Below are positions 6,397 through 24,758 of a stretch of 26,691 nucleotides of DNA, piece by piece. Below the pieces are notes generated by a model. That model saw only the letters and a program-made list of their open reading frames with translations, had not been told where the DNA came from and searched no databases. The DNA lies in contig JALGZR010000045.1 in the NCBI GenBank assembly GCA_025774805.1, forward strand, positions 1 through 26,691, written 5' to 3'. A program made the position numbers and the translations under genes. Position 1 is the first letter of the stretch, and the number at the start of each line of letters is the position of its first letter. The stretch comes from a bacterium (GTDB lineage: Bacteria; ARS69).

Positions 6397-7014
6397 GTGA
6401 GCCGCCCCGAGGATTCGGCCCTGGTCACGCGCGCCAAGGCGGGCGACCAGGCCGCGTTCACCGAGCTCGTCGAGCGTCATCAGGCGAGGGTGTACAACCA
6501 CGTCCTGCGAATGATGGGCAACCGGCAGGATGCGGAGGAGGTTCTCCAGGACACGTTCGTCCAGGTCTACCGCAACCTGGCGAGCTTCGAGGAGCGTTCC
6601 CGCTTCTCGACCTGGGTGTACCGGATCGCCACGAACGAAGCCCTGATGCGGCTTCGCAAGGCCCACCGGAAGCGGGAGGTCTTCGTTGATGATCACCTCG
6701 GACTCGACTCCCGATGGCACGGGGATCAGATTCGGGGCTTCGCCCGCTCCGCACTCGACGAAGTGGTGGACCGTGAGACCGTTCGGCTCCTGATGAAGGT
6801 GCTGGCGGAGCTTCCGGAGGAGCATCGAGTCGTCTTCACCATGCGGGACATCGACGGACTCACGAACGCCGAGGTGGCCGAAATTCTCGATCTGTCGATC
6901 GCGGCGGTCAAGTCGCGACTCCACCGAAGCCGGCTCTATCTCCGGGATCGCCTCTCTCTGCTCTACGGTCAGGGGGAGGCCTCCGAAGGTCCGCGAGAGG
7001 GAACCAAGCAGTGA
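6397..7014 (+). CDS. ECF RNA polymerase sigma factor (RpoE/SigR-like)
   Basis: A 205-residue group 4 sigma factor that directs RNA polymerase to stress-type promoters. Region 2 spans about residues 10-85 (DQAAFTELVERHQARVYNH, QDAEEVLQDTFVQVYR, FSTWVYRIATNEALMRLRK). A variable linker follows, then region 4 at about 140-188, with ELPEEHRVVFTMRDIDGLT and a helix-turn-helix ending in AAVKSRLHRSR. The GTG start at 6397 has AGGAG 8 nt upstream. The stop overlaps the start of the zinc-finger anti-sigma gene (GTGA), so the two proteins should be made together and the sigma held inactive until a signal arrives. Thioredoxin lies next, which suggests a thiol-redox role; that is inference from context. 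Confidence 0.94.
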   Translation: MSRPEDSALVTRAKAGDQAAFTELVERHQARVYNHVLRMMGNRQDAEEVLQDTFVQVYRNLASFEERSRFSTWVYRIATNEALMRLRKAHRKREVFVDDHLGLDSRWHGDQIRGFARSALDEVVDRETVRLLMKVLAELPEEHRVVFTMRDIDGLTNAEVAEILDLSIAAVKSRLHRSRLYLRDRLSLLYGQGEASEGPREGTKQ

Positions 7015-9948: not shown

Positions 9949-11069
9949 GGGCGCGAAGCGCGGGCGGAGTCCTCGTCCTGGCCCTGTCCCTCGTGGGCTG
10001 CGGCGGGGTGAAATCGTTTCGAGACTGTACGATGCCCGCCGCACTCGCCCCGGGCGCGATGAGGCACGACTCGGGGAGCGAGGCCGTCTTCCTCGCTGCG
10101 GACGACTTCGAGCTCCGCCCCGGCGGGCTTCGCCTGATCCACGCCGATCGCGCGGCCGTCGCCCCCCCGTTCTCCTGGACCGACGAGGCGGGGGAGACGG
10201 TCTCCCGCGGGAGCCTGGCCGGGCGGGTCGTCTGGATCAACCTCTGGGCCGATTGGTGTGCCACCTGCCGCGCCGAGTTCCCCGGCCTCCAGCGGATCCA
10301 CGACCGGCTCGCGGACCGCGGTCTCGCGCTGCTCGCCGTGTGCCGCAACTCCACGCGCTCCGGCTTCGAGGCGGCCGTCCGGAAGGATTGGCTCACGTTC
10401 CCCGCGATCGACGCGACGCGGGATTCGGACTTCCCCTTTCCCTTCGGGGCGTTTCCCACGAGCGTCGTCCTGGATCGCGCCGGTCGGGTGCGGGCCTACT
10501 GGCAGGGACACCGTTCTCTGGCGGCGGTCGAGACGCTGCTGCGGGATCTGCTCGCCGAGCCCCCGCGACCTCGCGGGCTCGAGCCGGGGGGGGACGGGAG
10601 CCCACGGCCCGCTTCGGTCGCCGACTCCACCCTCTCCCCCCGAGCGTCGGACTCGGTCGTACGGGCCTCTCTCGAGCTGCCGCGCGAGGAGGCCCCCCCC
10701 GGTGAGCTCGTGGAGGGGCGGCTCGTCCTCGACGTCGATCCGGGATGGCATCTCGTCGGCCCGGAGGATCCGGACCTCGCCTCACACCCCCTCGAGATCC
10801 GGATCGAGACGAGCTCCCCTCGGGCGGTCTTCGATCACCTCCGTCCGCTCCCGCGAGAGAGAGAGCTTGCCGGCCTCACCCGGTCGGTCTATTCGGGAAG
10901 AGTCGAGTTTCCGCTCTGGGGCTTCGTGCCGGCGGACGTGCCGCCGGGCCGGCCCCTCGCCCTCGCGGTCCGGACGACGCTTCAGGCGTGCAACGAGACG
11001 AGCTGCCTCCTTCCCGCCGAGATTCTCCTGTCCGGGAACGTCCGGGTCGCCGATCGTTCGGATCGGTGA
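9945..11069 (+). CDS. Lipoprotein: TlpA/ResA-like thioredoxin domain fused to a DsbD-alpha-like domain
   Basis: A predicted periplasm-facing lipoprotein of 374 residues. The first 20 residues form a lipoprotein signal with lipobox LVGC. Residues about 60-200 are a TlpA/ResA-type thioredoxin fold with WCATC (Cys105, Cys108) and a cis-Pro loop (FGAFPTSVVLD). After a Pro/Arg-rich linker, residues about 235-370 match the N-terminal domain of DsbD. They end in QACNETSC (Cys349, Cys354), where DsbD-alpha carries its two redox cysteines. The fusion would join an electron-accepting domain and an electron-delivering domain in one chain, normally fed by a CcdA/DsbD membrane partner not seen here. The start is CTG 9945, because no standard codon lies in frame before GTG 9993. 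It is coupled to the upstream M1-like gene, so the two may act together in the periplasm. Confidence 0.75.
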   Translation: MRARSAGGVLVLALSLVGCGGVKSFRDCTMPAALAPGAMRHDSGSEAVFLAADDFELRPGGLRLIHADRAAVAPPFSWTDEAGETVSRGSLAGRVVWINLWADWCATCRAEFPGLQRIHDRLADRGLALLAVCRNSTRSGFEAAVRKDWLTFPAIDATRDSDFPFPFGAFPTSVVLDRAGRVRAYWQGHRSLAAVETLLRDLLAEPPRPRGLEPGGDGSPRPASVADSTLSPRASDSVVRASLELPREEAPPGELVEGRLVLDVDPGWHLVGPEDPDLASHPLEIRIETSSPRAVFDHLRPLPRERELAGLTRSVYSGRVEFPLWGFVPADVPPGRPLALAVRTTLQACNETSCLLPAEILLSGNVRVADRSDR

Positions 11070-11164: not shown

Positions 11165-12517
11165 ATGCCGAACGCCTCGGAAAGCCAGGACCCGACGGGC
11201 CGGGGAAGGGGGGCACTGCTCCTTCTCTTCCTCGCGCTGATCGTCGTGGTGATCAACGTCTCGAACTGGTTCGTCCTCTCCCGAGTCACCGCCTCGGTCG
11301 ACGAGGAGCTCGGGCTCCGTCTCGTCACGGTGGCCGCCTCCGCCGTGACGACCGCCACGCCGGAGCTTCTCCTCGATCCGGCGGTCGCCGGCGACGAGTA
11401 CGTGCGCCGGGTGCTCCGCGACATCGCGACCCGGCACGAGCTGGAGGACGTTTTCCTGGTGGACACGGACGGGGTCGTGCTCTTCGACCTCGGCGGGGAG
11501 ACGGTCGGCGAGAGGTCCGACCTCGTGGATCTCGAGTTCGCCTCGTTCACCCGGGCGGTGGCCGGCATCCCCGCGGCCTCGCCCTCGCTCGAGATCGGCG
11601 GCGACGTGCTGAAGGCGGGCTACGCCCCGGTCGAGGATTGGGATGGTACGGTGGAGGCGGTGATCGGCGTGACCGCGGGCGGCGGATTTCACGCGCGCGT
11701 TCCCGCCCTGCGGAGGACCCTGCTCGGGATCACGCTGGGAAGCGGAGCGCTGGTGATCCTGCTCGGCGCGCTCTTCTTCGGGATGAGCCGACGGCTCGCC
11801 CGCACGGAGACGGCGCTCGTCCGCGCCGAGACCCTGAGCGCGATGGGGATGATGGCGGCCGGCGTGGCGCACGAGGTCCGCAATCCGCTCGCGATCATCG
11901 CCGGCACGGCGGAGCGGCTCCGCCGCAAGTACGGAACCGGGATAGCCGAAGAGGATCCGCTGTTCGGCTTCATCCCGGAGGAGGTCGATCGCCTCAACGG
12001 AATCGTGAAGGGCTACCTCCGCTTCGCCCGAAACGAGCCGCTCGCATTCGTCGAGTGCGACCTCGCGAAGGCGGTCGAGCGGTCGGCCGGTCTCGTGGCC
12101 GACGAGTTCGCCGGCCGGGGCGTGACGGTGATGCGCGAGGGGTGCGAGGAGCCGGTGCCGGGGCGCGCCGATCCCCAGCGACTGCAGCAGGTGCTGCTCA
12201 ACCTGCTGCTGAACGGAGCCCAGGCGATGCCGGAGGGCGGAACGCTCCGGCTCGCGCTGGAGACGAAAGCGGAAGAAGTACGCATCCGCGTGTCCGACGA
12301 GGGGACCGGTCTCGACGATAAGCAGTTGAGAGGGGCGTTCACGCCCTTCTTCACCACGAAGGAGACGGGGTCGGGACTCGGCCTCGCGATGGCGAAACGG
12401 ATCGTGGAAGGACACGGCGGAACGATCGAGCTCGCGAACCGCCCGGAGGGCGGGGCGATCGTCACGGTTGTGATGCCCCGGCGCGCCCGGTTGCCGGAAG
12501 GGGCGGAGGAGAGCTGA
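11165..12517 (+). CDS. Membrane sensor histidine kinase, NtrB/PrsK-like
   Basis: A 450-residue inner-membrane histidine kinase. TM1 (about 16-38) and TM2 (about 182-204) enclose a roughly 145-residue periplasmic sensor region that looks PDC/Cache-like (FLVDTDGVVLFDLG near residue 100). No clear HAMP or PAS follows. The dimerisation helix carries the phospho-acceptor His236 in GVAHEVRNPL. The ATPase part shows the N box QQVLLNLLLNGAQAM, DEGTGLD (G1), FTPFFTTKETGSGLGLAM (F/G2) and a C-terminal PEGGAIVTVVMP. The style is that of NtrB-type kinases paired with sigma54 regulators. The ATG has GGGGAGG very close upstream. Its stop overlaps the regulator's ATG (TGATG), so the pair is translationally coupled. 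The ligand is unknown but would be sensed in the periplasm. Confidence 0.93.
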   Translation: MPNASESQDPTGRGRGALLLLFLALIVVVINVSNWFVLSRVTASVDEELGLRLVTVAASAVTTATPELLLDPAVAGDEYVRRVLRDIATRHELEDVFLVDTDGVVLFDLGGETVGERSDLVDLEFASFTRAVAGIPAASPSLEIGGDVLKAGYAPVEDWDGTVEAVIGVTAGGGFHARVPALRRTLLGITLGSGALVILLGALFFGMSRRLARTETALVRAETLSAMGMMAAGVAHEVRNPLAIIAGTAERLRRKYGTGIAEEDPLFGFIPEEVDRLNGIVKGYLRFARNEPLAFVECDLAKAVERSAGLVADEFAGRGVTVMREGCEEPVPGRADPQRLQQVLLNLLLNGAQAMPEGGTLRLALETKAEEVRIRVSDEGTGLDDKQLRGAFTPFFTTKETGSGLGLAMAKRIVEGHGGTIELANRPEGGAIVTVVMPRRARLPEGAEES

Positions 12518-13896
12518 TGGCATCGATCCTGGTCGTGGACGACGAGCGGAAGATCACCACGCTCCTCGAGGGGGAGCTGACCGACGCCGGCCACGAGGTG
12601 ACCGTGGCGAACGACGGGGATGACGCGATTCGCCGGCTCGGGACGAAGCGCTTCGACGTGGTGCTCACCGATCTCCGTCTCGGGGGGACCGACGGGCTCG
12701 AGGTTCTCCGCCGGGCGAGGGAGATCGACCCGGAGACCACGGTGCTCCTGATGACCGCATACGCCACGGTGCAGACCGCGGTCGCCGCGATGAAGGAGGG
12801 GGCCGCCGACTACCTCGAGAAGCCGCTGAACCTCGACAAGACTCGACGCGTCATTTCGCAGGCGCTCGAGTCGCGCCGGCTCGCGGAGGAGAACCGCCGT
12901 CTTCGGGAGAGGATGCTCGCGGGCGAGGTCGGAACGGACACGATGGTGCGGGGGAAGAGCGCGGCGATGCGCGACGTGATGGCCCTCGTCGAAAAAGTCG
13001 CGCCGAGCGAGGCGACGGTGCTCCTCACCGGCGAGAGCGGAACGGGGAAGGACGTCGTGGCCCGGGCGATCCACGAACTCAGCACGCGCCGGGAGCAGTC
13101 GCTCGTGACGGTGAACTGCGCCGCCCTGGCCGAGACGCTGCTGGAGTCGGAGCTCTTCGGGCACGAGAAGGGCGCGTTCACCGACGCCTCCGAGCGCAAG
13201 CTCGGATGGTTCGAGGTCGCGAAGGGGGGAACGATCTTCCTCGACGAGATCGGGGAGATGAAGCCCTCGACGCAGGCGAAGCTGCTTCGGGTGCTCGAGG
13301 ACCGGCGCTTCCACCGGCTCGGGGGCTCCACGATCATCGAGGCCGACGTCCGAATCGTGGCGGCGACGAATCGCGACCTCGAGCGGGAGATCGAGAGCGG
13401 ACGCTTCCGCGAGGACCTCTTCTATCGGCTCAACGTCTTTCCGATTCCGCTCCCTCCGCTGCGCGAGCGCCTCGACGATCTCGACGAGCTCTGCGATCAC
13501 TTCCTGAGGCGATGCCGGTACGCGGGTCCGGGGCTCGACCCGGAGGCGAGGGCGGCGCTGGCCGGGTACGACTGGCCCGGAAACCTGCGGGAGCTGCGCA
13601 ACGTGATCGAGCGCGCGGTCATCCTCGCGGGAGAGGGTCCGGTCACCACGGCCGAGATCCACATTCCGCGGCGGCAGCGGTCGAAGGCCGGGGAAGGGGG
13701 GGCCGCGGTGGCCGGAGAGGAGAGCGGGGGGGCCGGAGCCTCGAGCCTCGCGGCGGAAGAGGAGCGGATGATCCGGGAGGCCCTCGCGAGGGCGGGAGGC
13801 AACAAGTCGAAGGCCGCCCGAATCCTGGGAATCACCCGTCGGGCGCTCTACGGCCGCCTCGAGCGGTACGGAATCGAGGGCGGGGAGAAGGGGTGA
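12517..13896 (+). CDS. Sigma54-dependent response regulator, NtrC family
   Basis: A 459-residue activator with the full three-domain layout. The receiver (1-120) has acidic pocket residues Asp8/Asp9, phospho-acceptor Asp52 in VLTDLRL, and Lys in YLEKPL. The AAA+ domain (about 145-385) has Walker A GESGTGK at 172-178, the sigma54-contact loop at 219-224, Walker B TIFLDEIGEM and the FREDLFYRLNVFPI region. A Fis-type helix-turn-helix at the C-terminus contains NKSKAARILGITRRALYGRL. The contact loop reads GAFTDA instead of GAFTGA, a variant that also occurs in natural regulators. A long Gly/Ala-rich linker joins the AAA+ and DNA-binding domains. The protein would bind an upstream palindrome and use ATP to open sigma54 promoters; both a palindrome and such a promoter lie directly downstream of the gene. 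Confidence 0.95.
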   Translation: MASILVVDDERKITTLLEGELTDAGHEVTVANDGDDAIRRLGTKRFDVVLTDLRLGGTDGLEVLRRAREIDPETTVLLMTAYATVQTAVAAMKEGAADYLEKPLNLDKTRRVISQALESRRLAEENRRLRERMLAGEVGTDTMVRGKSAAMRDVMALVEKVAPSEATVLLTGESGTGKDVVARAIHELSTRREQSLVTVNCAALAETLLESELFGHEKGAFTDASERKLGWFEVAKGGTIFLDEIGEMKPSTQAKLLRVLEDRRFHRLGGSTIIEADVRIVAATNRDLEREIESGRFREDLFYRLNVFPIPLPPLRERLDDLDELCDHFLRRCRYAGPGLDPEARAALAGYDWPGNLRELRNVIERAVILAGEGPVTTAEIHIPRRQRSKAGEGGAAVAGEESGGAGASSLAAEEERMIREALARAGGNKSKAARILGITRRALYGRLERYGIEGGEKG

Positions 13897-13929
13897 TCCC
13901 GTCCGCGGCGCTGTCCTTGGGGGTCCGGA

Positions 13930-13949
13930 AGTGTCCCCTGGGGGACACT
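13930..13949. promoter_or_regulatory. Inverted repeat, likely activator binding site (UAS)
   Basis: Perfect 9-bp arms (AGTGTCCCC and GGGGACACT) are separated by 2 bp. The site starts 34 bp after the response regulator gene, and its centre is about 124 bp upstream of the start expected from the sigma54 promoter at 14037-14053. That is the usual distance for NtrC-family enhancers. An AT-rich stretch (about 13982-14016) lies between the two and could aid DNA bending. No T-run follows the arms, so a terminator is less likely. Confidence 0.65.
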
Positions 13950-14036
13950 CGGAGGCCGCCGCGGGCAAGCGCGAGGATTCGCAAAGTGTAACTTGTTAAC
14001 CCAAAAGGAGTTGTATCGAGCCGGCCATCCCCGCCG

Positions 14037-14053
14037 CTGGCACGCGAGCTGCA
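14037..14053 (+). promoter_or_regulatory. Sigma54 (-24/-12) promoter
   Basis: CTGGCACG-N4-CTGCA matches the sigma54 consensus YTGGCACGRNNNTTGCW at all but two positions. The key GG (14039-14040) and GC (14051-14052) have the required spacing. Transcription would start near 14064, about 40 nt before the ATG at 14103, with GAGGAGAGAG as the ribosome site. It follows a sigma54-type regulator gene on the same strand. Confidence 0.8.
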
Positions 14054-14102
14054 TGTCGTTGGGCTGAAGACCGCCCCGGATCGCCTCCGAGGAGAGAGAA
14101 CC

Positions 14103-15155
14103 ATGAGACGCCGACGCAAGCCCCCGCTCCGGACGCTCGTCGCGTGGACCGTCCTGCTCCTTCTGGCGTCGGGGAGCGCCGCGCCGGCGCAGACCGACTC
14201 GCGCCTCGGGGACCAGCTCCAGCGGACCGACGAGGCCCTGGCCCGGGCCGGCGAGATCGTGCGCGAGAGCGAGTCGCTCCGCGCCCGGGAGACCTTCGAG
14301 CAGGCGTTGAATCTCCAGAAGATCGCGTGGGAGAAGTTCCGCGAGCGCCAGCTCCTCGTCTCGGCCCGCCTCACCGGCGAGGCGCGGAATCTGGGCGCGC
14401 GGGCCGTCACCATGGCCCGGGAGGACGCGCAGCTCCGGGCCCGGGCCCGCCGCGAGGGGGAGGCGGCGGAGCTCGCTCTGCAGCGCGCGCGCGAGGAGCT
14501 CGGCCCCGCCGCGAGCCCCTCGGCCCGCCTCCTCTTGGAAAGGGCCCGCTCGCAGATCGAGCGGGGTCGGGTCCAGTTCCACGAGCAGCACTACGAAGCG
14601 GCCCTCCGCCTCGCGATCTCCGCGCAGCGACTCATCCGCCAGGCGCTCGGGGCGGGACTGAATGACGGCGCCCTCGGGTCCCGAGTTCTCCGGGAGCTCG
14701 AACGCACGGATCACCTGATCGATCGGGCGAGGACGATCGTCGGCGACGGCGACGATCCCGAGGCCCGCGAGCTCCTGGAGAGGGCCGCGGACCTCCAACA
14801 CAACGCCTGGAGCCACTACCGGGAGGGCCGCCATCGTGTCGCCCAGGCGACGACCCGGGAGGCCCGGAGCCTCCTTCAGCGGGCGGTGTCCCTCGTCCAG
14901 GGATCGGTGGACCCCGATCGAGTGGAGAGAGCGGTCGCGGAGACGGATCGGCTGCTCGGACGCGTCGCAGAGCTGGTGCGGGACTCCGGCGACGAGGGCG
15001 CGGCCCGGACGCTCGAGAACGCCCTCGAACAGCAGAGGCAGGCGAAGGACCTTCTGCGCGAGGGCCAGCTCCGGGCGGCGTTGGCCAAGACCCGCGTCGC
15101 CCGCCGGCTCGCCACGCGCGCCGCCGGCATGGTCGAGACGGGGGATTCGCGGTGA
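14103..15155 (+). CDS. Secreted helical protein with four tandem repeats
   Basis: I do not recognise this 350-residue protein. A signal peptide is clear: basic MRRRRK, a hydrophobic core near 12-22, then ASGSAAPAQ. The mature chain is almost all charged, amphipathic helix with very few Pro or Gly. Four related units can be aligned at residues about 39-105, 122-183, 197-267 and 275-345, with a period near 78. Each has a helix with an E-R-T-D or A-L-x-R-A pattern, a short break, then a long helix with Q-x-x-A-x-x-x-x-R-E-G/E-x, then an (A)LxxAxxARxLxxRA helix. The build recalls helical-hairpin or TPR-like scaffolds. It is the first gene after the sigma54 promoter, and its stop overlaps the start of the next gene, an outer-membrane barrel. 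A periplasmic partner of that barrel is the simplest guess. Confidence 0.8.
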   Translation: MRRRRKPPLRTLVAWTVLLLLASGSAAPAQTDSRLGDQLQRTDEALARAGEIVRESESLRARETFEQALNLQKIAWEKFRERQLLVSARLTGEARNLGARAVTMAREDAQLRARARREGEAAELALQRAREELGPAASPSARLLLERARSQIERGRVQFHEQHYEAALRLAISAQRLIRQALGAGLNDGALGSRVLRELERTDHLIDRARTIVGDGDDPEARELLERAADLQHNAWSHYREGRHRVAQATTREARSLLQRAVSLVQGSVDPDRVERAVAETDRLLGRVAELVRDSGDEGAARTLENALEQQRQAKDLLREGQLRAALAKTRVARRLATRAAGMVETGDSR

Positions 15156-16474
15156 CTCGCTCCCTCCTGCTCGGAGTCGGGGGGGCGATGCTCGTCACCC
15201 TGTCCGGCGCGGGGGCGGAGTCGACCGAGGGGAAGATCGCCGTCACTCCGAGAGTCGGCGTCGACTTCGAGCACTTCGGCGAGACCTTCCGAGTCACCGA
15301 CACCCGGGACACCGTCGCCACGATCAACGACCTCGGGACGATCGTCGGGCTGACCGTGCAGAGCGGTTCTCCCGGAGCGAGCTCCTTCCGGCTCGATACC
15401 GACTTCCACTACGGCCGGCAGACGCACCGCGTCCGCCTCGATTTCGAGGGCCGGCTTCGCAGTGGTGCGAACACCTGGGAGCTCGAGCACGACGGCTCCT
15501 ACCGCGTCTTCTCCGAGGAGGGGGACTACGCGCTCTCGGGGGACTATCTCCAGGACTACGTGCGCCTCACCTGGGAGCGGCGACTGACCGAGGCCCTGCG
15601 CTTCCGGCTGCGCAACGTCCTCGACTTGACCTGGTACGAGGACCCCGACGAGTACAACCTGACCTCGACCCGGTACCGCCCTTCGGCCGACGTGCGATTC
15701 GCGTTCGGCGATCTCAGCGAGCTGCGGGCGGGGTACGAGCTCGGCCGGCGGACGGTCCCCGATTCGACCTCCCTCAATCACTGGCGGCACGTCGGGCAGG
15801 CGGATCTCTCCCTGCTCTTCGGGTGGACGTCGTCCCTCGACGTCTCGGAGCGAATCGAGAGGCGCGTCTATCCCGAGGGAAGCGTGCGCGAGAGCTCTTG
15901 GGAACATCGCGCGGACATCACCTTCGAGTTCTCCACCGGGGACCGGACGACCTTTCGAGTCGTTCAGGAGAACGAAGTGATCCGGTACGACGAGCCGGAT
16001 GATCTCGACTTCGACTCGGAGTGGGCCCGCACCGGCTTCCAGGTCGAGATTCACCGCACCCGGAATCTCGATCTCTCTCTCATGCCGGTCTACGCGTTCC
16101 TGACGAGCGACGGGGCGCCCGAGGAGGAGTACACCGAGACGGGCCTCGAGTTCGGGATCGACTGGCGGATCGGCGACCACACCTGGATCAATCTCACGGA
16201 CGAGGTCGGGCGCCGGGACTACGAGATCGGTGCGAACCCGGTCGACCGGCCCGAGATCGACAGCATTGCGTCCCTCGCCGCGGACGACGCGTTCGCTCTC
16301 GACACGGCGTTCTCCGACTATGTGTACAACCGCCTCACGCTCCTCCTCACCTCCCAGGTCTCGCCCGGGATCTCCGCGGATCTTTTCGTGAACTGGCAGC
16401 CCGAGAATCACCACGTGAACCGGCACGACACCGACACCCGGATCGTCTCCGGAGGGTTCGAGTACCGTTTCTGA
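15152..16474 (+). CDS. Outer-membrane beta-barrel protein of unknown function
   Basis: A 440-residue exported protein with a signal peptide (MTRSLLLGVGGAMLVTLSGAGA). The rest is built of alternating hydrophobic/polar strands about 10 residues long, rich in Tyr, Trp, Arg, Asp and Glu, such as TFRVVQENEVIRYDE and DLFVNWQPENHHVN. It ends in FEYRF; a terminal Phe after alternating residues is the usual BAM recognition signal. Strand count suggests a barrel of 16 or more strands, but I could not count them exactly. No plug, TonB box or known porin signature was seen. The GTG start overlaps the upstream repeat protein's stop (GTGA), so the pair is translationally coupled and shares the sigma54 promoter. 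Confidence 0.78.
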   Translation: MTRSLLLGVGGAMLVTLSGAGAESTEGKIAVTPRVGVDFEHFGETFRVTDTRDTVATINDLGTIVGLTVQSGSPGASSFRLDTDFHYGRQTHRVRLDFEGRLRSGANTWELEHDGSYRVFSEEGDYALSGDYLQDYVRLTWERRLTEALRFRLRNVLDLTWYEDPDEYNLTSTRYRPSADVRFAFGDLSELRAGYELGRRTVPDSTSLNHWRHVGQADLSLLFGWTSSLDVSERIERRVYPEGSVRESSWEHRADITFEFSTGDRTTFRVVQENEVIRYDEPDDLDFDSEWARTGFQVEIHRTRNLDLSLMPVYAFLTSDGAPEEEYTETGLEFGIDWRIGDHTWINLTDEVGRRDYEIGANPVDRPEIDSIASLAADDAFALDTAFSDYVYNRLTLLLTSQVSPGISADLFVNWQPENHHVNRHDTDTRIVSGGFEYRF

Positions 16475-16638: not shown

Positions 16639-17472
16639 GTGACTGATCTCGCCCGGCCGGTACCGTTCCGGCGCCTTCGCCCTCTCCGCTCTCTCGCGCG
16701 CTCTCTCGTGCTGACCGTCCTTCTCAGCGGATGTGCCGCGATCGGCCAGATGAACATCTTCTCCGAGGAGCAGGAGCTCGCCATGGGCGCGCAGTTCGCC
16801 GCCGAGCTCGAAAAGGAGCTCACGTTCATCGACGATCCGGAGGTCGTCGGTTACATCGACAGGCTCGGGCAGTCCCTGGCGCGTGTATCGAAGCGGAGCC
16901 ACCTCACGTATCGCTTTCACGTCGTCGACACCGACGACGTGAACGCCTTCGCCGTTCCCGGCGGCTACCTCTACGTGAACCGCGGTCTGATCGAGGCGGC
17001 GGACAGCGAGTCGGAGCTCGCCGGGGTGCTCGGTCACGAGATCGGGCACGTGGTGGGAAAGCACAGCGCCCGCCAGCTCAGTCAGCAGTATGGACTCTCG
17101 CTTCTCGCTTCGATGGCCCTCGGCGAGGAGCCCGGCATGCTGAAACAGCTCACCGCCCGGATCATCGCCACCGGGGCGCTCACCCGCTACAGCCGGGAAA
17201 TGGAGTCGGAGGCCGACAGCTACGGAGTTCAGGAGCTGTACGATGCCGGCATCGATCCGAACGGCCTCGCGACTTTTTTCGGCAAGCTCGAGGAAATGCG
17301 CGGCGGTCGCGGGAGCGGCGCCCTCGAGATGTTCTTCTCGACCCACCCGGACCCGGGAGATCGGGCCAATGCCGTCCGTTCGCAGATCGCCGCGCTCCCG
17401 GCCAAGCCCGGTCTGCGGGCGGATTCCCCCCGCTTCCACGAGATCCAGGACCGGGTGAAGAGAGGGAACTAG
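16639..17472 (+). CDS. M48 family zinc metalloprotease lipoprotein (BepA/LoiP-like)
   Basis: A 277-residue predicted periplasm-facing lipoprotein with lipobox LLSGC (Cys32). The M48 catalytic site is complete: HEIGH at 133-137 within VLGHEIGHVVGKHSAR, and the third zinc ligand in MESEADSYG (Glu191). NAFAVPGGYLYVNRGLI upstream of the zinc site and FFSTHPDPGDRANAV near the C-terminus are also typical of the family. Its length fits single-domain relatives such as LoiP/YcaL rather than BepA, which adds a TPR domain. Such enzymes degrade misassembled outer-membrane proteins, so its place after a barrel gene is suggestive. The GTG start at 16639 has CGGAGG 6 nt upstream. The 164-bp gap before it contains TTGACG at 16576 but no good -10. 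Confidence 0.92.
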   Translation: MTDLARPVPFRRLRPLRSLARSLVLTVLLSGCAAIGQMNIFSEEQELAMGAQFAAELEKELTFIDDPEVVGYIDRLGQSLARVSKRSHLTYRFHVVDTDDVNAFAVPGGYLYVNRGLIEAADSESELAGVLGHEIGHVVGKHSARQLSQQYGLSLLASMALGEEPGMLKQLTARIIATGALTRYSREMESEADSYGVQELYDAGIDPNGLATFFGKLEEMRGGRGSGALEMFFSTHPDPGDRANAVRSQIAALPAKPGLRADSPRFHEIQDRVKRGN

Positions 17473-18210: not shown

Positions 18211-18935
18211 TCGTGGTCGGTCCTTCGCTCATGGCCGTGAACGCCACCCGCGACACCGTCCTGGCGCAAAGGCTGGAGTGGGCCGGGACGAGTGACACGA
18301 GGCGACGAGGCCTCCTGGGCCGGACCGAGTTCCCGGCGGGCGAGGGGCTCTACCTCGTGCCCTGCAAGTGGATTCACATGTACGGCATGAAGTTCGCGAT
18401 CGACGTAGCCTTCCTGGGAAGCGATGGGCGAATCCTCGCCGTACACGAGGGTCTTCGCCCCAACCGCCTTTCGCGACCGGTCTTCCGCGCCGAAGGGGTA
18501 CTCGAGCTGCCCGAGTCCACTCTCCGGCGCACCGGGACCCGCGTCGGAGACACCGTCCGGTTCACGGAAGCGGACGTCGACGGGGCCGTTTCGTGTTCCG
18601 ACCTGTCCGATCCGGCGAAGCCGGAGAACGGAATTCGTCAGGAGTGTCGATCCTCGACGGATCGACCTGTGCAACGGGTGAACAGATGCTCGGCTCCGTT
18701 GCGACCTTCCTCGGACGCGCGATCTCAGCGGCGGCAACTCTCGACCGCTCGACGCTCGACCGTCCGAGTTCTCTTCGAGTTGTGCCGTCCGAGAACAGCG
18801 TGCGGAAATGTTGCGCATTCGAAGCGAGCCCGCGTTGACGATCTGCAACTCTCGCACAAGAAGAACCCATTCCCATCACGAATGCAACTACCGTGTGCAA
18901 TTCGTGTTACTCGAAAGGCGCTTGAAGTCTCATGA
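18207..18935 (+). CDS. DUF192 family protein with an unusual C-terminal extension
   Basis: Residues about 15-120 match DUF192: TRRRGLLGRTEFPAGEGLYLVPCKWIHMYGMKFAIDVAFL, with the family's glycine-rich start, the WIHMYGM core and the later FLGSDGRIL strand. The function of the family is not established. The GTG start overlaps the stop of the upstream small secreted protein. The reading frame stays open for another 115-120 codons, to 18935. That part is Arg/Ser-rich, uses AT-ending codons far more than its neighbours (for example AGA, CTA, CAA, GTT) and has no domain-like pattern. A normal DUF192 protein would end near 18600, so the last 330 nt may be non-coding DNA open by chance, or reflect a lost stop. 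The domain is sure; the 3' end is not. Confidence 0.7.
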   Translation: MIVVGPSLMAVNATRDTVLAQRLEWAGTSDTRRRGLLGRTEFPAGEGLYLVPCKWIHMYGMKFAIDVAFLGSDGRILAVHEGLRPNRLSRPVFRAEGVLELPESTLRRTGTRVGDTVRFTEADVDGAVSCSDLSDPAKPENGIRQECRSSTDRPVQRVNRCSAPLRPSSDARSQRRQLSTARRSTVRVLFELCRPRTACGNVAHSKRARVDDLQLSHKKNPFPSRMQLPCAIRVTRKALEVS

Positions 18936-18951
18936 GCGGATGGTTTAGGAT
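18922..18951 (+). promoter_or_regulatory. Candidate sigma70 promoter for the tad operon
   Basis: TTGAAG (18922-18927) and TAGGAT (18946-18951) are separated by 18 bp; each matches its consensus at four of six positions. A start near 18958 would give a leader of about 110 nt before flp. It is the best promoter-like pair I saw upstream of the tad genes, but it is not strong. Confidence 0.38.
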
Positions 18952-18999
18952 CTCCCTACGTCGGACGAAGACTCGAGTGATCGAGACTCTCATCCGGAC

Positions 19000-19037
19000 C
19001 ACGTGTCGCTCCCGTAAGGGGCCCGCCCTGACACGTG
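19000..19037. promoter_or_regulatory. Inverted repeat in the flp leader
   Basis: CACGTGTC (19000-19007) and GACACGTG (19030-19037) are exact complements with a 22-nt loop that itself contains CCC and GGGG runs able to pair. The structure ends 30 nt before the flp start. It could be an operator, an mRNA stabiliser for the highly expressed pilin, or an attenuator. Confidence 0.4.
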
Positions 19038-19067
19038 AATGCTGCCAAACACGGAAAGGATCCTACG

Positions 19068-19229
19068 ATGAACTTCCTGCTCCGAGTCCTCCGCGAAGAC
19101 GACGGTCAGGACATGATCGAGTACGCGCTTCTCGGTTCCTTCATCTCCATCGTGGCCATCGTCGCCCTGCGTGCGATCGGCCCGCTCGTGAACACCGTGT
19201 ACGAAGGAATCCAGGCGGCTCTCACCTGA
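19068..19229 (+). CDS. flp: Flp-type class IVb prepilin
   Basis: A 53-residue major pilin precursor. It has a short leader ending in DDG, then the class IVb cleavage motif G/XXXXEY: cleavage after Gly gives QDMIEYALLGSF, with Glu at +5 and Tyr at +6. A single hydrophobic helix (about 18-37) follows, with a short polar tail. After cleavage by the TadV peptidase encoded next, the helix packs into the Flp pilus filament. The ATG at 19068 is chosen over an in-frame GTG at 19035 because AAAGGA precedes it and the leader length is then normal. It is the first gene of the tad operon, preceded by a structured leader. Confidence 0.93.
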   Translation: MNFLLRVLREDDGQDMIEYALLGSFISIVAIVALRAIGPLVNTVYEGIQAALT

Positions 19230-19277
19230 TCCTGACGACGAAACCGACCAGGGAATGCGGTCCCGGAGGTTCTGACG

Positions 19278-19814
19278 ATGCAAGAGTCCACTCCATCCGT
19301 GATCATCGGGTGCGTGACCTTGAGCCTACTGATCGGAGCCATGGTGATCGACGTCCGGAGCCGCCGCATCCCGAACTGGCTCACTCTTCCCGCTTTGGGC
19401 GCCGGGCTGGCCGTACGGTCCATCTGGGGGGGGCCACAGGAACTCCTCATGGGGGTGGCGGGGGTCTTCGCGGCCCCCGCCTGTCTCCTGTTCCTGCGGG
19501 GGTTCCGTCCCCTGGGAATGGGCGACATGAAACTTGCCGCAGCCATCGGGGCGCTCCTGGGACCGAAGGTCGGTGCCCTGGCGATGGTCATCTCCGGAGT
19601 CGCGGGCGGTCTCCTCGCGATCGGGTACCTGTTCCGAACGAAATCGACGGCCCTGAGCCTTTTTTCGCCGTTCTTCATCGGCGTGCCGTTCCTGAAACGG
19701 CCCTTCACGAATGCGGAAGCGTCCGAGGAACCGGAAGAGCCGGTCGCGATCCCCTACGGAGTCGCGATCGGGGCCGGAACCTTGCTGACCGCCGCATTCG
19801 TGTGGGTAAGGTGA
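19278..19814 (+). CDS. tadV: Prepilin peptidase TadV/CpaA
   Basis: A 178-residue polytopic inner-membrane aspartyl protease (A24 family) that removes the leader from Flp pilin and the TadE/TadG pseudopilins. The two catalytic aspartates are seen at Asp25 (MVIDVRSRRIPN) and Asp83 in the GMGDMK motif, with hydrophobic helices between and after. It lacks the N-terminal methylase domain of PilD, as TadV proteins do. A charged loop near 142-156 (NAEASEEPEEP) precedes the last helix. The ATG has CGGAGG 8 nt upstream. The stop overlaps a possible GTG start of tadE (GTGA). Confidence 0.93.
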   Translation: MQESTPSVIIGCVTLSLLIGAMVIDVRSRRIPNWLTLPALGAGLAVRSIWGGPQELLMGVAGVFAAPACLLFLRGFRPLGMGDMKLAAAIGALLGPKVGALAMVISGVAGGLLAIGYLFRTKSTALSLFSPFFIGVPFLKRPFTNAEASEEPEEPVAIPYGVAIGAGTLLTAAFVWVR

Positions 19815-19819
19815 CCGAG

Positions 19820-20221
19820 ATGCCGCGCTCGATTCTCCGCAGCGACCGTGGCCAGGCCCTGATCGAATTCGCGCTCGTTCTGCCGCTTCTCCTGCTCCTC
19901 GTATTCGGCATCACGGAATTCAGCCGGGCCTGGATGACGGTGAACGTTCTGACCTCGGCGGCGCGCGAGGGAGCCCGGCTCGCGGTCGTCACCGAACCGG
20001 ACCAGGATCGCGTCATCGCGCGGGTCAACGAGGTCTGTACGTCGTCCCGGGTCACTCCGACGGCGATCACGATCACCGGGCCGGATCCTGCCGACGTGGA
20101 GCGCCGGGTCACCGTGGAGGTCGAAGCCGACTTCCAGGTCCTTCCGGGTGAGATCCTGGGGACCTTCTCCGGCACGATCCCGCTTCGCGCAAGATCGATC
20201 ATGCGTCATGAGTCCTTTTGA
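19820..20221 (+). CDS. tadE: TadE-like pseudopilin
   Basis: A 133-residue pseudopilin. SDRGQALIEFALVLPLLLLLVFGI carries the class IVb-like site, with cleavage after Gly, Glu at +5 and Phe in place of Tyr at +6, followed by one membrane helix. The remaining periplasmic domain (AAREGARLAVV, then strands) is typical of the TadE fold. It is processed by TadV and helps Flp pilus assembly. The ATG at 19820 has AGGTG 6 nt upstream. GTG 19811, which overlaps the tadV stop, would add three residues. Confidence 0.88.
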   Translation: MPRSILRSDRGQALIEFALVLPLLLLLVFGITEFSRAWMTVNVLTSAAREGARLAVVTEPDQDRVIARVNEVCTSSRVTPTAITITGPDPADVERRVTVEVEADFQVLPGEILGTFSGTIPLRARSIMRHESF

Positions 20222-20245
20222 GTCGACCACGTGGGAGGCACGTGC

Positions 20246-21139
20246 ATGAAGGAAAGGGACGCCACAGAGAGAGCGGGGGTTGCTTTGCTCAAGGATCGAA
20301 TCGAGTCAACGGACACGAAGGGTCTGGTGATCCTGATCGTATCCGTGGTCTTGGCCGGTCTCTGCGCGGGGGGCCTCTACCTCTACATGAAGAACGCAAC
20401 TCCGATCGCGAGTGTCGAGCCGCCGAAGGTGGTTCCGGTCGTGGTCGCGACAAAGGACTTGACGTTCGGGACGGTCTTGCAGCGGGAGCACCTGAAGCAG
20501 GTCGACTTCCCGCCGGAATCGGTCCCTCGAGGTTACTACTCCGATCTCGACAGCGTGGTGAACCAGAGCACACGGGTCTTCCTGATCGAAGGAGAACCGG
20601 TGCTGGGATCCAAGTTGTCCTCGATCGGGGGAGGACTCTCGCTGCGGATTCCGGAGGACAAACGGGCCATCAGCCTGAGCGTGAACGAGATCACGGGAGT
20701 GAACGGCTTCGTGCTTCCCGGTGATCGCGTCGACGTCCTCGTGACCGTCGACAACGCCAAGGGATCCAACGTCGCGGTCACGGAGACCATCCTGCAGAAC
20801 ATCGAGGTCCTCGCCTCGGGATCCAAGACGGAGACGAAACGGAATCACCAGATCACCGTTCAGACGGTCACGCTGATCGTGGACACGGAAGGAGCCGAGG
20901 CCCTGGCGCTGGGAATGCACCAGGGGGAGGTGAATCTCGTGTTGCGCAACCCGGTGGACACCAAGATCGTCGCGACGAAACTGACGGACACGAAGTCCGT
21001 GCTGGACCTCTACACGACGCGGACGTCGTCGTACAAGCGGCCGTCCACGACGAAGAAGGCTCCGGATCCGGAACCTTCGTACACGATCATCCGGAATGGA
21101 AACATCACGCATCAGTCCTCGCCGGAGAAGAACAAGTAG
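20246..21139 (+). CDS. cpaB: Flp pilus assembly protein CpaB/RcpC
   Basis: A 297-residue periplasmic protein anchored by an N-terminal membrane helix (about 26-47). A SAF-type domain follows (VVVATKDLTFGTVLQREHL, then GEPVLGSKL), and next the family's RAISLSVNEITGVNGFVLPGDRVDVLVT segment. The central beta domain ends with VTLIVDTEGAEALALGMHQGEVNLVLR. The C-terminus is basic and low-complexity (TRTSSYKRPSTTKKAPDPEP). It is thought to help the CpaC secretin or guide the pilus through the periplasm. The ATG at 20246 is preferred over GTG 20231 because GGGAGG lies 7 nt before it. Confidence 0.92.
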   Translation: MKERDATERAGVALLKDRIESTDTKGLVILIVSVVLAGLCAGGLYLYMKNATPIASVEPPKVVPVVVATKDLTFGTVLQREHLKQVDFPPESVPRGYYSDLDSVVNQSTRVFLIEGEPVLGSKLSSIGGGLSLRIPEDKRAISLSVNEITGVNGFVLPGDRVDVLVTVDNAKGSNVAVTETILQNIEVLASGSKTETKRNHQITVQTVTLIVDTEGAEALALGMHQGEVNLVLRNPVDTKIVATKLTDTKSVLDLYTTRTSSYKRPSTTKKAPDPEPSYTIIRNGNITHQSSPEKNK

Positions 21140-21203
21140 CAATTCCGCGGAGGGTCACCCCGAGGGACCCTTCAGGTGATCGCCCCGTGAAACGGAGCCT
21201 TCT

Positions 21204-22400
21204 ATGATTCTCAGGCGCGCGCGACTCTCTCATCCTCGATGGCCGGGGATGCCGATCGTCCTTCTGGCGGGCTGGATTCTGGCACTCGTTCCGAACGAGG
21301 CACGAGCTCAGCCGGCGGCCGAGCCACCGGCCAAGCTCAACGTGACCGTCGGGCAGTCGATCACGCACCGACTGCGGACGGCCGTGAAGACGGTCTCCAT
21401 CGCGGATTCGGACATCGCCGACGTCGTCGTCGCGGGGCCCCAGGAAATCCTCATCAACGGGAAGGAGATCGGGAGGACGACCCTCGTGATCTGGGATGCG
21501 GTGGACGTGTCCACGACCCTCGATCTCGTGGTGCGAGGTCAGTTCAGCGAGCAGAAGATCGAGCTCCGAGTCCAGCTGGCCGAAGTGAATCACTCTCGAG
21601 CAAAAGAAACGGGTCTGGATGCGCTCTTCGAGACGAACCGACTGGATGATCAGGTGCAGGCGGGCTCCTACGCCGGCAACGTCGACACGCCCAGCATCCC
21701 TCTGTCCATTTTCGGAGGGGCGGCGACCGAGGGGGCGGATATCGCGCTCCGGTGGGTGCACGGCAGGGAAGAGATCTCGACCATGGTCCGGGCGATGGTG
21801 GCGGAGGGGGTGATTCGCGTTCTCGCGAAACCCAACGTGGTCGCCGCGAGCGGTGAGAAGGCGTCCTTCCTCTCGGGAGGGGAAATTCCGGTGCCGGTGG
21901 CGAGCTCGGGGTCGACCGGAGGAAGCACCGTGACCATCGAATGGAAGGAGTTCGGGGTCAAGGTCGCGTTCGTGCCGACGATCGTCGACGACGGCGTGAT
22001 CAGCCTGAAGGTCGCTCCGGAGGTGTCGAGCCTCGACTTCGGGAACGGAATCGAACTCAGCGGATTCCGGATTCCGGCCCTCCGATCCCGAAAGGCCAGT
22101 ACGACGGTGGAACTGAAGGACCGGGAGACGCTGGTGATCGGCGGACTCCTCATGGAAGAAGAGACGGATTTCGAGACGAAGATCCCCATTCTCGGGGACA
22201 TCCCGCTCCTCGGATACTTCTTCCGGAGTCAGCAGGCCGCCACGACGATCAGCGAGCTCATGCTGGTGGTGTCTCCCCGAATCGTCCGGCCGCTCGCCCC
22301 GGGGAGGGACGTTCCGCTCCCGACCGACGGGCTGGACGTGCCGGAGGTGATTCCCCGGGACCGAGACCGGGAATTCCGGTCCGAGAGCTTCGGAGGCTGA
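21204..22400 (+). CDS. cpaC: Flp pilus secretin CpaC/RcpA
   Basis: A 398-residue outer-membrane secretin. A signal peptide (hydrophobic core about 17-30, cleaved near ARAQ) is followed by the N-terminal pilus-secretin domain (LNVTVGQSITHRL, VVVAGPQEILINGKEIGRTTLVIWD). A short BON-like/N1 region follows, then the secretin domain: VRVLAKPNVVAASGEKASFLSGGEIPVPV, EFGVKVAFVPTI and TTVELKDRETLVIGGLL, ending in the characteristic VPLLGYFFRS-like and ELMLVVSPRIVRPL strings. It forms the ring through which the Flp pilus exits. The ATG has CGGAG 6 nt upstream. The 64-bp gap before it contains AGGGTC/GACCCT arms (9-nt loop) without a T-run. Confidence 0.95.
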   Translation: MILRRARLSHPRWPGMPIVLLAGWILALVPNEARAQPAAEPPAKLNVTVGQSITHRLRTAVKTVSIADSDIADVVVAGPQEILINGKEIGRTTLVIWDAVDVSTTLDLVVRGQFSEQKIELRVQLAEVNHSRAKETGLDALFETNRLDDQVQAGSYAGNVDTPSIPLSIFGGAATEGADIALRWVHGREEISTMVRAMVAEGVIRVLAKPNVVAASGEKASFLSGGEIPVPVASSGSTGGSTVTIEWKEFGVKVAFVPTIVDDGVISLKVAPEVSSLDFGNGIELSGFRIPALRSRKASTTVELKDRETLVIGGLLMEEETDFETKIPILGDIPLLGYFFRSQQAATTISELMLVVSPRIVRPLAPGRDVPLPTDGLDVPEVIPRDRDREFRSESFGG

Positions 22401-22401
22401 G

Positions 22402-23535
22402 ATGAAAGCGCGGGAGGGAAGCAGGAACAGTCGACGTGCCGGGCCTGTCCGTCTCCTCCTCCGGGACGAGAGGGGAAGCACGCTCATCATGGTCACGGTG
22501 GCGTTCCTCGCCCTCGCCGCGCTGACCGGCATCGCCATCGATTCGGCGGTCATGTGGACCACGAAGACCCAGCTCCAGAACGCGGCGGACGCCAGCGCGC
22601 TGGCGGGGGCCTCGGGTCTCATCGAGGGGTCCGAAGACCTGGCCGTGAGCCGGGCCATCGAGATCGCCGCCGCCAACCGCGCGGTTCAGGACGCGGGGGG
22701 TGCACCGGTGGTCATCACCCCCGAGGATGTGGAGTTCCCGGAGCCCGATATGATCCGGGTCACCGCGCACCGCACCCGGGCGAGCGGAGATCCGCTCCGC
22801 CTGTTCTTCCGCCGAATCGTGGAGCCCGCCAGCGACAACCTCGCCGATGTGACCGCGGTGGCCGCGGCCCGCGCCTACAGCGTTTGCGGGGCGCGCTGCG
22901 TCAGGCCGTGGGCGATCCCCGACCGCTGGGACGACGCCAACGACAACGGAGAGTACGACGAGGGAGAGTACTACCACCCGGAGGGAACCGGGTACGTGGC
23001 CGACCTCGACGTCGGCGCTCAGATCACTCTCAAGGTCGGCAACCCCCAGCAGGCGATCGAGCCCGGGATCTTCTACCCGATCAACTTTCCCCCGCTCGAT
23101 TCCGACATGGGCAATCCGCTGACCGGCGGGGACTGGTATCGGGAGTGGATTTCGGAGTGCGCGCCGTTTCTGGTGCAGATCGGTGATCGTCTCCAGCTCG
23201 AGCCGGGCAACATGGTCGGTCCCACCCGCCAGGGAATGGACGCGTTGATCGCCCAGGATCCGTCCGCATACTGGGACTCCACATTCGAGACGGTGTCCGG
23301 ATCCGCCTACGCCTTAAGCCCTCGGATCGGACTCGTGCCCCTGTTCGATCCGACCCTGCCTCCGGAGTCGGGACGCAACTGGGTGACCGTCACCAAGATC
23401 GGCGCCTTCTTCATCGAGGAGACGGGTCCCGGAGGAGAGGTCACCGGTCGCTTCATCGACACCATAACCGCCGGCAGTGAATGCGAGGAAGGCTCGGGGG
23501 GCGGTTTCGTCATGGGCATCACACTCACTGAATAG
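22402..23535 (+). CDS. tadG: TadG-like pilus assembly protein with an EF-hand-like loop
   Basis: A 377-residue membrane-anchored protein. A TadE/G-like N-terminus (RDERGSTLIMVTVAFLALAALTGIAID) gives one helix, followed by the family's MWTTKTQLQNAADASALAGA motif. The periplasmic part includes a perfect 12-residue calcium-loop pattern at 178-189: Asp178, Asn180, Asn182, Gly183, Asp186 and Glu189 occupy positions 1, 3, 5, 6, 9 and 12. Two cysteine pairs are possible (SVCGARCVRPW and later single Cys). No von Willebrand A domain or MIDAS motif, found in many TadG proteins, was seen. The ATG is 1 nt after the cpaC stop, with CGGAGG upstream. It likely acts in the assembly or tip complex of the pilus. 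Confidence 0.83.
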   Translation: MKAREGSRNSRRAGPVRLLLRDERGSTLIMVTVAFLALAALTGIAIDSAVMWTTKTQLQNAADASALAGASGLIEGSEDLAVSRAIEIAAANRAVQDAGGAPVVITPEDVEFPEPDMIRVTAHRTRASGDPLRLFFRRIVEPASDNLADVTAVAAARAYSVCGARCVRPWAIPDRWDDANDNGEYDEGEYYHPEGTGYVADLDVGAQITLKVGNPQQAIEPGIFYPINFPPLDSDMGNPLTGGDWYREWISECAPFLVQIGDRLQLEPGNMVGPTRQGMDALIAQDPSAYWDSTFETVSGSAYALSPRIGLVPLFDPTLPPESGRNWVTVTKIGAFFIEETGPGGEVTGRFIDTITAGSECEEGSGGGFVMGITLTE

Positions 23536-23552
23536 TGATTAGGGAGGGCCGC

Positions 23553-24755
23553 ATGTCGGACGCTCGGAACGGTGGGAGCTTTCGTTTCGTCCTGATCGAC
23601 GGGGACGAGCTCGCCCGGGTGAAGATCAAGCAGCATCTCTTGTCCTCGGGCTTCCGGGTCATCGGGGAGACCGAGGATCAGAAGGCCGGAATCCGCCTGA
23701 TCCGCGGGCTTCACCCGGATGTGATCATCATGGAGATCGGAGCCGACGCCGGAGCGACTCTGGACGTCGTGCGTCGCCTCCGTGAGGAGCTCCCCACGAT
23801 GGGGCTGATTCTGCTCTCAAGGGATGCGTCTCCCGAGCTCATCCTCGGCAGCGTCCGAGCCGGGGCTCACGAGTTCCTGACCATCCCGATCGATCTGACC
23901 GAGCTCGACCGGGCCGTCGAACGGCTACGGAAGATGATGGCGCACATGCAGACGGCCCAGGGACGACGGGGGCGGACTCTCGCGGTGTATCAGACGAAGG
24001 GGGGCGTCGGCTCCAGTTCCGTTGCCACGAACCTCGCCCTGTCGCTCCTGGCTGAGCCCGAGAGGAGGGTGGGCTTGGTCGACTTCAATCTCCAGGTCGG
24101 AGACCTCGCCCTCATGCTCGACATCGAACCCGAGCACACCTTCGCACGAGGCATCGAGGACGGAACGATCGACGAGGCCAAGCTGCAGACGATGCTCGCC
24201 CGACATCGCTCCGGCCTCCGGCTCCTGACGATCACCGACCGGCCGGAGGAGTCCGATCTCATCCTGCGAAACCACATTCCGGAGCTGTTCGGTCTGCTGA
24301 ACACCATGTTCGATTACGTCGTCGTCGACGTCAATCGACACCTGGACGAGCGGACTCTCGAGCTTCTCGACCTCGCCGACACCATTCTGCTGATCTCCAC
24401 GCTCGACATTCCCACCATCCGGAATGCGCGTCGCTACGTGGACCTCTTCGAACGGCTCGAGATTCCCAAGGAGCGGATCCGCTTGATCGTGAACCGATTC
24501 CAGGAGGGCACCTCGATCACGATTCGGGATCTGGAGAACACGGTCGGCACAGAGGTGTTTTGGTCACTTCCCAACGAGTTTCGGCCCATGCGTGCCGCCA
24601 TCGACTCCGGCAACCCCGTGCTTCTCGACTCCCCCCGGTCGCGGCTGGCACGGAGCTACCGGGAGCTCGGCGCGGCACTCTGTGAGCGTCCGTCAGAGGA
24701 GAACGGTACCCCGCCGAATCAGGACTCACTGCAATCGATGCAAACGTCAGGATGA
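23553..24755 (+). CDS. cpaE: CpaE/TadZ localisation ATPase with a receiver-like domain
   Basis: A 400-residue cytosolic protein. Residues 10-130 fold like a response-regulator receiver (FVLIDGDELARVKIKQHL, then LILLSRDAS and KPID-like TIPIDL), but the phospho-acceptor position is Glu61 (VIIMEIG). It therefore probably works without phosphorylation. A MinD/ParA-type ATPase follows, with the deviant Walker A QTKGGVGSSSVATN (family-typical loss of the second Lys), VDFNLQVGDLALMLD and VVVDVNRHLD. Such proteins place the Tad machine at its site in the cell. The ATG at 23553 is preferred over an upstream GTG at 23535 because AGGGAGGG precedes it. Confidence 0.92.
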   Translation: MSDARNGGSFRFVLIDGDELARVKIKQHLLSSGFRVIGETEDQKAGIRLIRGLHPDVIIMEIGADAGATLDVVRRLREELPTMGLILLSRDASPELILGSVRAGAHEFLTIPIDLTELDRAVERLRKMMAHMQTAQGRRGRTLAVYQTKGGVGSSSVATNLALSLLAEPERRVGLVDFNLQVGDLALMLDIEPEHTFARGIEDGTIDEAKLQTMLARHRSGLRLLTITDRPEESDLILRNHIPELFGLLNTMFDYVVVDVNRHLDERTLELLDLADTILLISTLDIPTIRNARRYVDLFERLEIPKERIRLIVNRFQEGTSITIRDLENTVGTEVFWSLPNEFRPMRAAIDSGNPVLLDSPRSRLARSYRELGAALCERPSEENGTPPNQDSLQSMQTSG

Positions 24756-24758
24756 CCC

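Follow-up and report, generated by a model that had tools for sequence, protein, structure and literature searches.

Does a two-component regulator that lies beside two anonymous envelope genes control them, and is such an arrangement confined to one genome or part of something wider? The question arose from a 26,691-nucleotide stretch of bacterial DNA (hereafter the window), in which a first-pass annotation had proposed a self-contained regulatory pair serving two adjacent genes. The features concerned are as follows.

11165-12517, forward strand: sensor histidine kinase with Pfam HisKA and HATPase_c domains, two transmembrane helices and the H-box AHEVRNPL
12517-13896, forward strand: NtrC-type response regulator with Pfam Response_reg, Sigma54_activat and HTH_8 domains
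13910-13929, no strand assigned: weak second operator-like site, GCTGTCCTTGGGGGTCCGGA, with a motif-model score of 8.2, 20 bp 5′ of the strong site
13930-13949, no strand assigned: operator (predicted enhancer site), AGTGTCCCCTGGGGGACACT, centred 98 bp 5′ of the -24 element
14038-14053, forward strand: sigma-54 promoter TGGCACG-CGAG-CTGCA (-24/-12), with a predicted transcription start near 14064
14103-15155, forward strand: gene for a secreted helical-repeat protein with a signal peptide and four three-helix repeats (12 helices)
15152-16474, forward strand: gene for an outer-membrane beta-barrel protein of about 20 strands, with a signal peptide, the C-terminus YRF and a GTG start

By Pfam, the domain content of the kinase and regulator is ordinary, and their genes share a single base according to the ORF coordinates, which bears out the earlier description of a coupled NtrB-like kinase and NtrC-type regulator. 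The regulator comprises a receiver, a sigma-54 AAA+ domain with a GAFTDA loop, and a Fis-type HTH whose recognition helix reads TRRALYGR, so that the parts of an NtrC-type two-component sigma-54 activator (receiver, AAA+ domain with a GAFTGA-type loop, Fis HTH and a neighbouring kinase) are all present. Between the regulator and repeat genes lies a gap of 206 bp that contains both the palindrome and the -24/-12 element. The palindrome, AGTGTCCCC-TG-GGGGACACT, has perfect 9-bp arms (9+2+9 bp), as had been reported for these positions; the window holds five such palindromes against 2.3 expected, and by chance the gap itself would contain about 0.02. Whole-genome scans, which were pattern searches only, found this to be the sole copy in the 5.1-Mb genome at up to 3 mismatches, while the more permissive pattern TGTMCC-N4-GGKACA matches exactly at two more sites in that genome, both lacking a -24/-12 element. 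Measured from the window's -24 element, the two operator sites are at -98 (strong) and -118 (weak). The promoter pattern TGGCACG-N4-YTGCA has a single match in the window with both strands searched, beginning 65 bp 5′ of the ATG at 14103; the near-consensus element noted previously is therefore present, with its coordinates revised from 14037-14053. By the usual rule, a -24/-12 element in this position would start transcription near 14064. Downstream, the repeat and barrel genes share 4 bp, the GTG start of the second running into the stop codon of the first, in agreement with the two overlapping target genes of the first-pass annotation.

Conservation upstream of the repeat gene had been named in advance as one point on which the proposal would stand or fall. 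The window's phylum is represented by five genomes, each from its own genus, and all of them encode the repeat protein, the barrel and RpoN; the four-gene order is the same in all five, although in G004 the locus is divided between two contigs. The promoter pattern TGGCACG-N4-YTGCA, exact or as a one-base variant, is retained in 5/5 of these genomes, in a gap that is otherwise poorly conserved, so that a -24/-12 promoter and an RpoN to use it, two of the marks of a sigma-54 regulon, occur together. The palindrome was likewise kept, both in these relatives and in non-training loci of other phyla, and the -24/-12 element was found to precede the repeat gene both there and in other phyla. One part of the earlier description did not carry over: the targets number two in the window, whereas 4/4 relatives have a third, a small gene for a secreted protein positioned between the other two.

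Beyond the window's own phylum, the order kinase, regulator, repeat protein, barrel was intact on one contig at 38 loci in four phyla, where phylum labels denote a kinship grouping, most genomes appear to be MAGs, and loci of the same genus cannot be counted as independent. These loci are the window, L012-L014, many of the second phylum, and one each of the third (L180) and fourth (L069). The repeat-protein profile matched in 22 of 386 broadly sampled genomes, and the barrel profile in 55/80 genomes of the second phylum, 26/47 of the third and 1/8 of the fourth. A contig query with a single barrel sequence returned no match, and an alignment query returned three MAG contigs. In the third phylum, apart from the one full four-gene copy, most repeat-barrel pairs have the operator but no kinase and regulator linked to them, which does not fit the notion of a self-contained pair. 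These pairs often lie downstream of 23S-5S rRNA genes, and because of these adjoining genes the contigs tend to break at the pairs. We observed the pair directly 3′ of the rRNA genes at L168, L170, L171, L173, L176 and L062.

To define the operator, we applied expectation-maximisation with a symmetric 20-bp model to 35 regulator-repeat gaps and recovered TGTMCC-N4-GGKACA in 35/35. The model was seeded with the consensus from a prior inverted-repeat listing, and the information of the resulting motif (16.8 bits) compares with 5.9 +/- 0.5 bits (maximum 6.7) in shuffled sets given the same seed. A plain search for the best inverted repeat in each gap gave weak, scattered matches, whereas the shared motif was clear with the symmetric model. 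Site centres are mostly 80-130 bp 5′ of the -24 element, and in many of the homologous loci a further site lies 20-23 bp from the first. Scored with a matrix hand-written from the known consensus, a -24/-12 element stands at a similar place in most of the gaps; at L112, L115, L128, L069, L176 and L180 it is weak or displaced. In a held-out test on non-training loci, 22/25 repeat genes had the operator at p<0.05 relative to shuffles of the same DNA. When operator and -24/-12 element were required together within a fixed spacing range, the combination preceded 55/64 repeat genes, a set that includes the training loci, and occurred at 10 further positions in the 1,683 kb of strand scanned. On the protein side, the recognition helix TRRxLYxR is nearly invariant among the module regulators, which is what a shared operator would predict. 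The sigma-54 contact loop differs by lineage: GAFTDA in 5/5 genomes of the window's phylum, and GAFTGA in 33/40 module regulators. In NorR, the GAFTDA change relieves repression, and the regulator of the window's lineage may accordingly be tuned differently.

We then considered the places outside the repeat genes. Half of them (5/10) lay just 5′ of members of one lipoprotein family (L060, L069, L131, L143 and L144), and an exact-pattern search added two more operator-preceded members (L191 and L192). A second family, designated lipoprotein family 1, has the operator and -24/-12 element in 4/4 relatives from the window's phylum, where its gene is unlinked to the module, and in 3/3 copies from the third phylum; in G010, G077, G158 and G324, from other phyla, it adjoins or lies near the barrel gene. 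No copy of lipoprotein family 1 was detectable in the window's genome. Since operator and promoter also precede lipoprotein genes, they mark a conserved envelope regulon rather than a local quartet, and the predicted targets are extracytoplasmic throughout. The claim of a self-contained system thus held in part: the regulator, palindrome and sigma-54 promoter most likely do control the repeat and barrel genes, while in relatives the same elements serve lipoprotein genes as well. As regards its regulatory wiring, we consider it very probable from sequence comparison that this locus is the regulator-bearing part of a conserved sigma-54 envelope regulon. The recurrence of the same arrangement in at least four phyla argues for a real control circuit, and an apparently undescribed one; within the collection of papers searched, we found no report of the module or of its operator.

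In the mechanism that we propose, the membrane kinase would read a cue on the periplasmic side and phosphorylate the NtrC-type regulator; a periplasmic signal is plausible given the two-transmembrane topology predicted for the kinase. The regulator would bind TGTMCC-N4-GGKACA about 100-150 bp 5′ of the transcription start, and its AAA+ domain would remodel the sigma-54 polymerase waiting at the -24/-12 element, switching on the repeat-barrel operon. The operator resembles those of the NtrC regulon (TGCACC-N5-GGTGCA) in serving the same regulator class and in occurring as tandem palindromes 5′ of a -24/-12 element, but its spacer is one base shorter and its half-site is different.

What the circuit would switch on is less readily named. 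The AlphaFold2 model of the repeat protein (42-sequence alignment; pLDDT 92.9, pTM 0.65) comprises a signal peptide and 12 helices in four three-helix units, matching the secreted four-repeat helical protein foreseen by the first-pass annotation. Neither this protein nor the barrel matched a Pfam or NCBIfam family at E<=0.001, PDB sequence searches with both profiles gave nothing meaningful, and the scanned lipoprotein families had no Pfam match. The repeat protein did not reach the TPR cut-off (TPR_12, 12.9 vs 30.1 bits), and the repeats of the model have three helices, not two. A single repeat aligned with 2pmr, an uncharacterised three-helix archaeal protein (Z 10.2, rmsd 2.2, 74 residues), and with 4fzo (Z 11.4 over 80 residues), although helical bundles often give Z values of this size; the DUF357 score in a repeat-protein homologue was 16.2 vs 29.4 bits, and the likeness of the modelled repeats to 2pmr may reflect no more than a widespread way of packing helices. 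The barrel model (about 20 strands, pLDDT 59) matched outer-membrane barrels in general and no one family, which supports its earlier assignment to the outer membrane. In L068 (oriented 12933-14585) and L071 (9776-11380), from two other phyla, the barrel appeared by eye to carry an N-terminal helical stretch, as if fused, and this stretch resembled the small secreted protein that the relatives of the window encode. The periplasmic sensor region of the kinase (about 150 aa) can be aligned across modules, and it matched no Pfam family among 21 orthologues.

Because no characterised relative is known for the sensor region, the repeat protein, the barrel or the lipoproteins, an envelope function is read from predicted location and co-regulation only. 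We tentatively suggest, at somewhat below even confidence, that the likeliest common role of the products is to make up one inducible assembly in the outer membrane: the barrel would be its pore or anchor, the repeat protein would serve it as a scaffold or partner in the periplasm, and the lipoproteins would be additional subunits or its cargo. The broader proposal, to which we give an even chance, is that several little-studied phyla possess a widespread, undescribed outer-membrane apparatus (repeat protein, small partner, barrel and lipoproteins) whose genes are all switched on together by a sigma-54 two-component circuit that is dedicated to them and has an operator of its own, conserved across phyla.

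Among other readings of the products, an envelope-stress circuit of the ZraSR-ZraP type is unlikely but deserves serious weight. Here the kinase would sense damage or metal, the repeat protein would be a chaperone or buffer feeding back on the kinase, and the barrel and lipoproteins would be repair parts. The locus shares the logic of ZraPSR, which responds to zinc and envelope stress in enterobacteria: a membrane kinase, an NtrC-type regulator and a sigma-54 promoter driving a secreted helical target. AtoS and ZraS were the best-scoring NCBIfam models for the kinase and AtoC and ZraR were among the best for the regulator, all below cut-off, and a BepA-like M48 gene lies 3′ of the barrel gene in two genomes. 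The shortfalls are nevertheless large for both kinase (197 vs 479 bits for ZraS) and regulator (403 vs 760 bits for ZraR), and the sequence of the repeat protein showed no link to ZraP, with nothing ZraP-like at E<=10. The target is instead a 12-helix repeat protein accompanied by a barrel and lipoproteins, behind a different operator and in other phyla. ZraP systems are not known to have a barrel partner, which also counts against this reading.

Rather improbable, in our estimate, is a ligand-induced outer-membrane uptake channel, in which a kinase of DctB type would bind a periplasmic small molecule and induce a specific pore assisted by lipoproteins and periplasmic proteins. DctBD and other transport-inducing kinase/NtrC pairs likewise combine a two-transmembrane kinase bearing a periplasmic region with sigma-54 activation of linked envelope genes. 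The sensor region here looks Cache-like by eye (..DTDGVVLFD.., ..KAGYAPV..AVIGVTA..), but the dCache_1 and sCache_3_2 matches came from one member each of the 21 at E ~0.06, which is chance level. Structural matches of the barrel include the substrate-specific channels OccK/OccD, CymA and LamB, yet siderophore receptors and porins score equally against a model of such low pLDDT. In contrast to DctBD, the targets are outer-membrane and secreted proteins with no inner-membrane carrier, and no conserved linked inner-membrane transporter or catabolic gene was found.

A split type 11 secretion system, in which barrel and helical-repeat partner would carry the co-regulated lipoproteins to the cell surface, seems to us distinctly improbable. 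The barrel strands of the model exceed the number expected for Slam, whose barrel has 14. The parts list is similar, a helical N-terminal domain, a barrel and lipoprotein cargo, and SlipAM was the commonest Pfam match of the barrel family (4/53 members at E<=1, best E 0.0019). The best SlipAM (PF04575) score is however below the Pfam cut-off (18.2 vs 22 bits), and the match is absent in 49/53 members. Slam systems also pair a barrel and helical partner with lipoproteins (PMC8406197, PMC5449769), but here these are separate genes outside SlipAM and under dedicated sigma-54 control. AlgK/AlgE-like polysaccharide export was rejected, AlgE being one of many barrel matches and no conserved synthase gene being linked. 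Finally, it is scarcely credible that a generic NtrC pair just happens to lie next to genes it has nothing to do with and that palindrome and promoter are there by accident: such pairs and -24/-12-like strings are common, but gene order, operator and promoter are conserved in four phyla and hold up in held-out tests.

Returning to the conserved sigma-54 envelope regulon, it is unusual for operator, promoter and regulator to be conserved jointly across several phyla that have been little studied. Through this conservation, outer-membrane and lipoprotein genes that were anonymous become a single unit open to experiment, whose operator motif can find further members in these genomes. A survey of the bacterial exterior found sigma-54 promoters to be associated generally with envelope and lipoprotein genes (PMC3162934). 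The theme of sigma-54 and the exterior is shared, but where the survey gives general associations, the present case is a defined regulon, and it extends the idea of sigma-54 governing the cell exterior (PMC3162934).

With regard to the surroundings of the module, we sought a constant flanking gene across phyla and found none. A tie to the Tad pilus cluster downstream in the window (18932-26144; TadE-like, RcpC/CpaB, secretin, TadG-like, TadZ/CpaE-like with a receiver, and TadA-like ATPase) was dropped for that reason, the Tad flank being no more constant than the others. A TlpA/redoxin-like protein is encoded immediately 5′ of the kinase gene (9993-11069) and is retained in G001, G003 and G004. 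The M48 metalloprotease 3′ of the barrel gene (16639-17472, start inferred) is BepA/LoiP-like and occupies the same position in G004; in E. coli, BepA helps barrel assembly. Further upstream, an ECF-type sigma factor (6397-7014; Sigma70_r2, r4_2) is conserved in G003.
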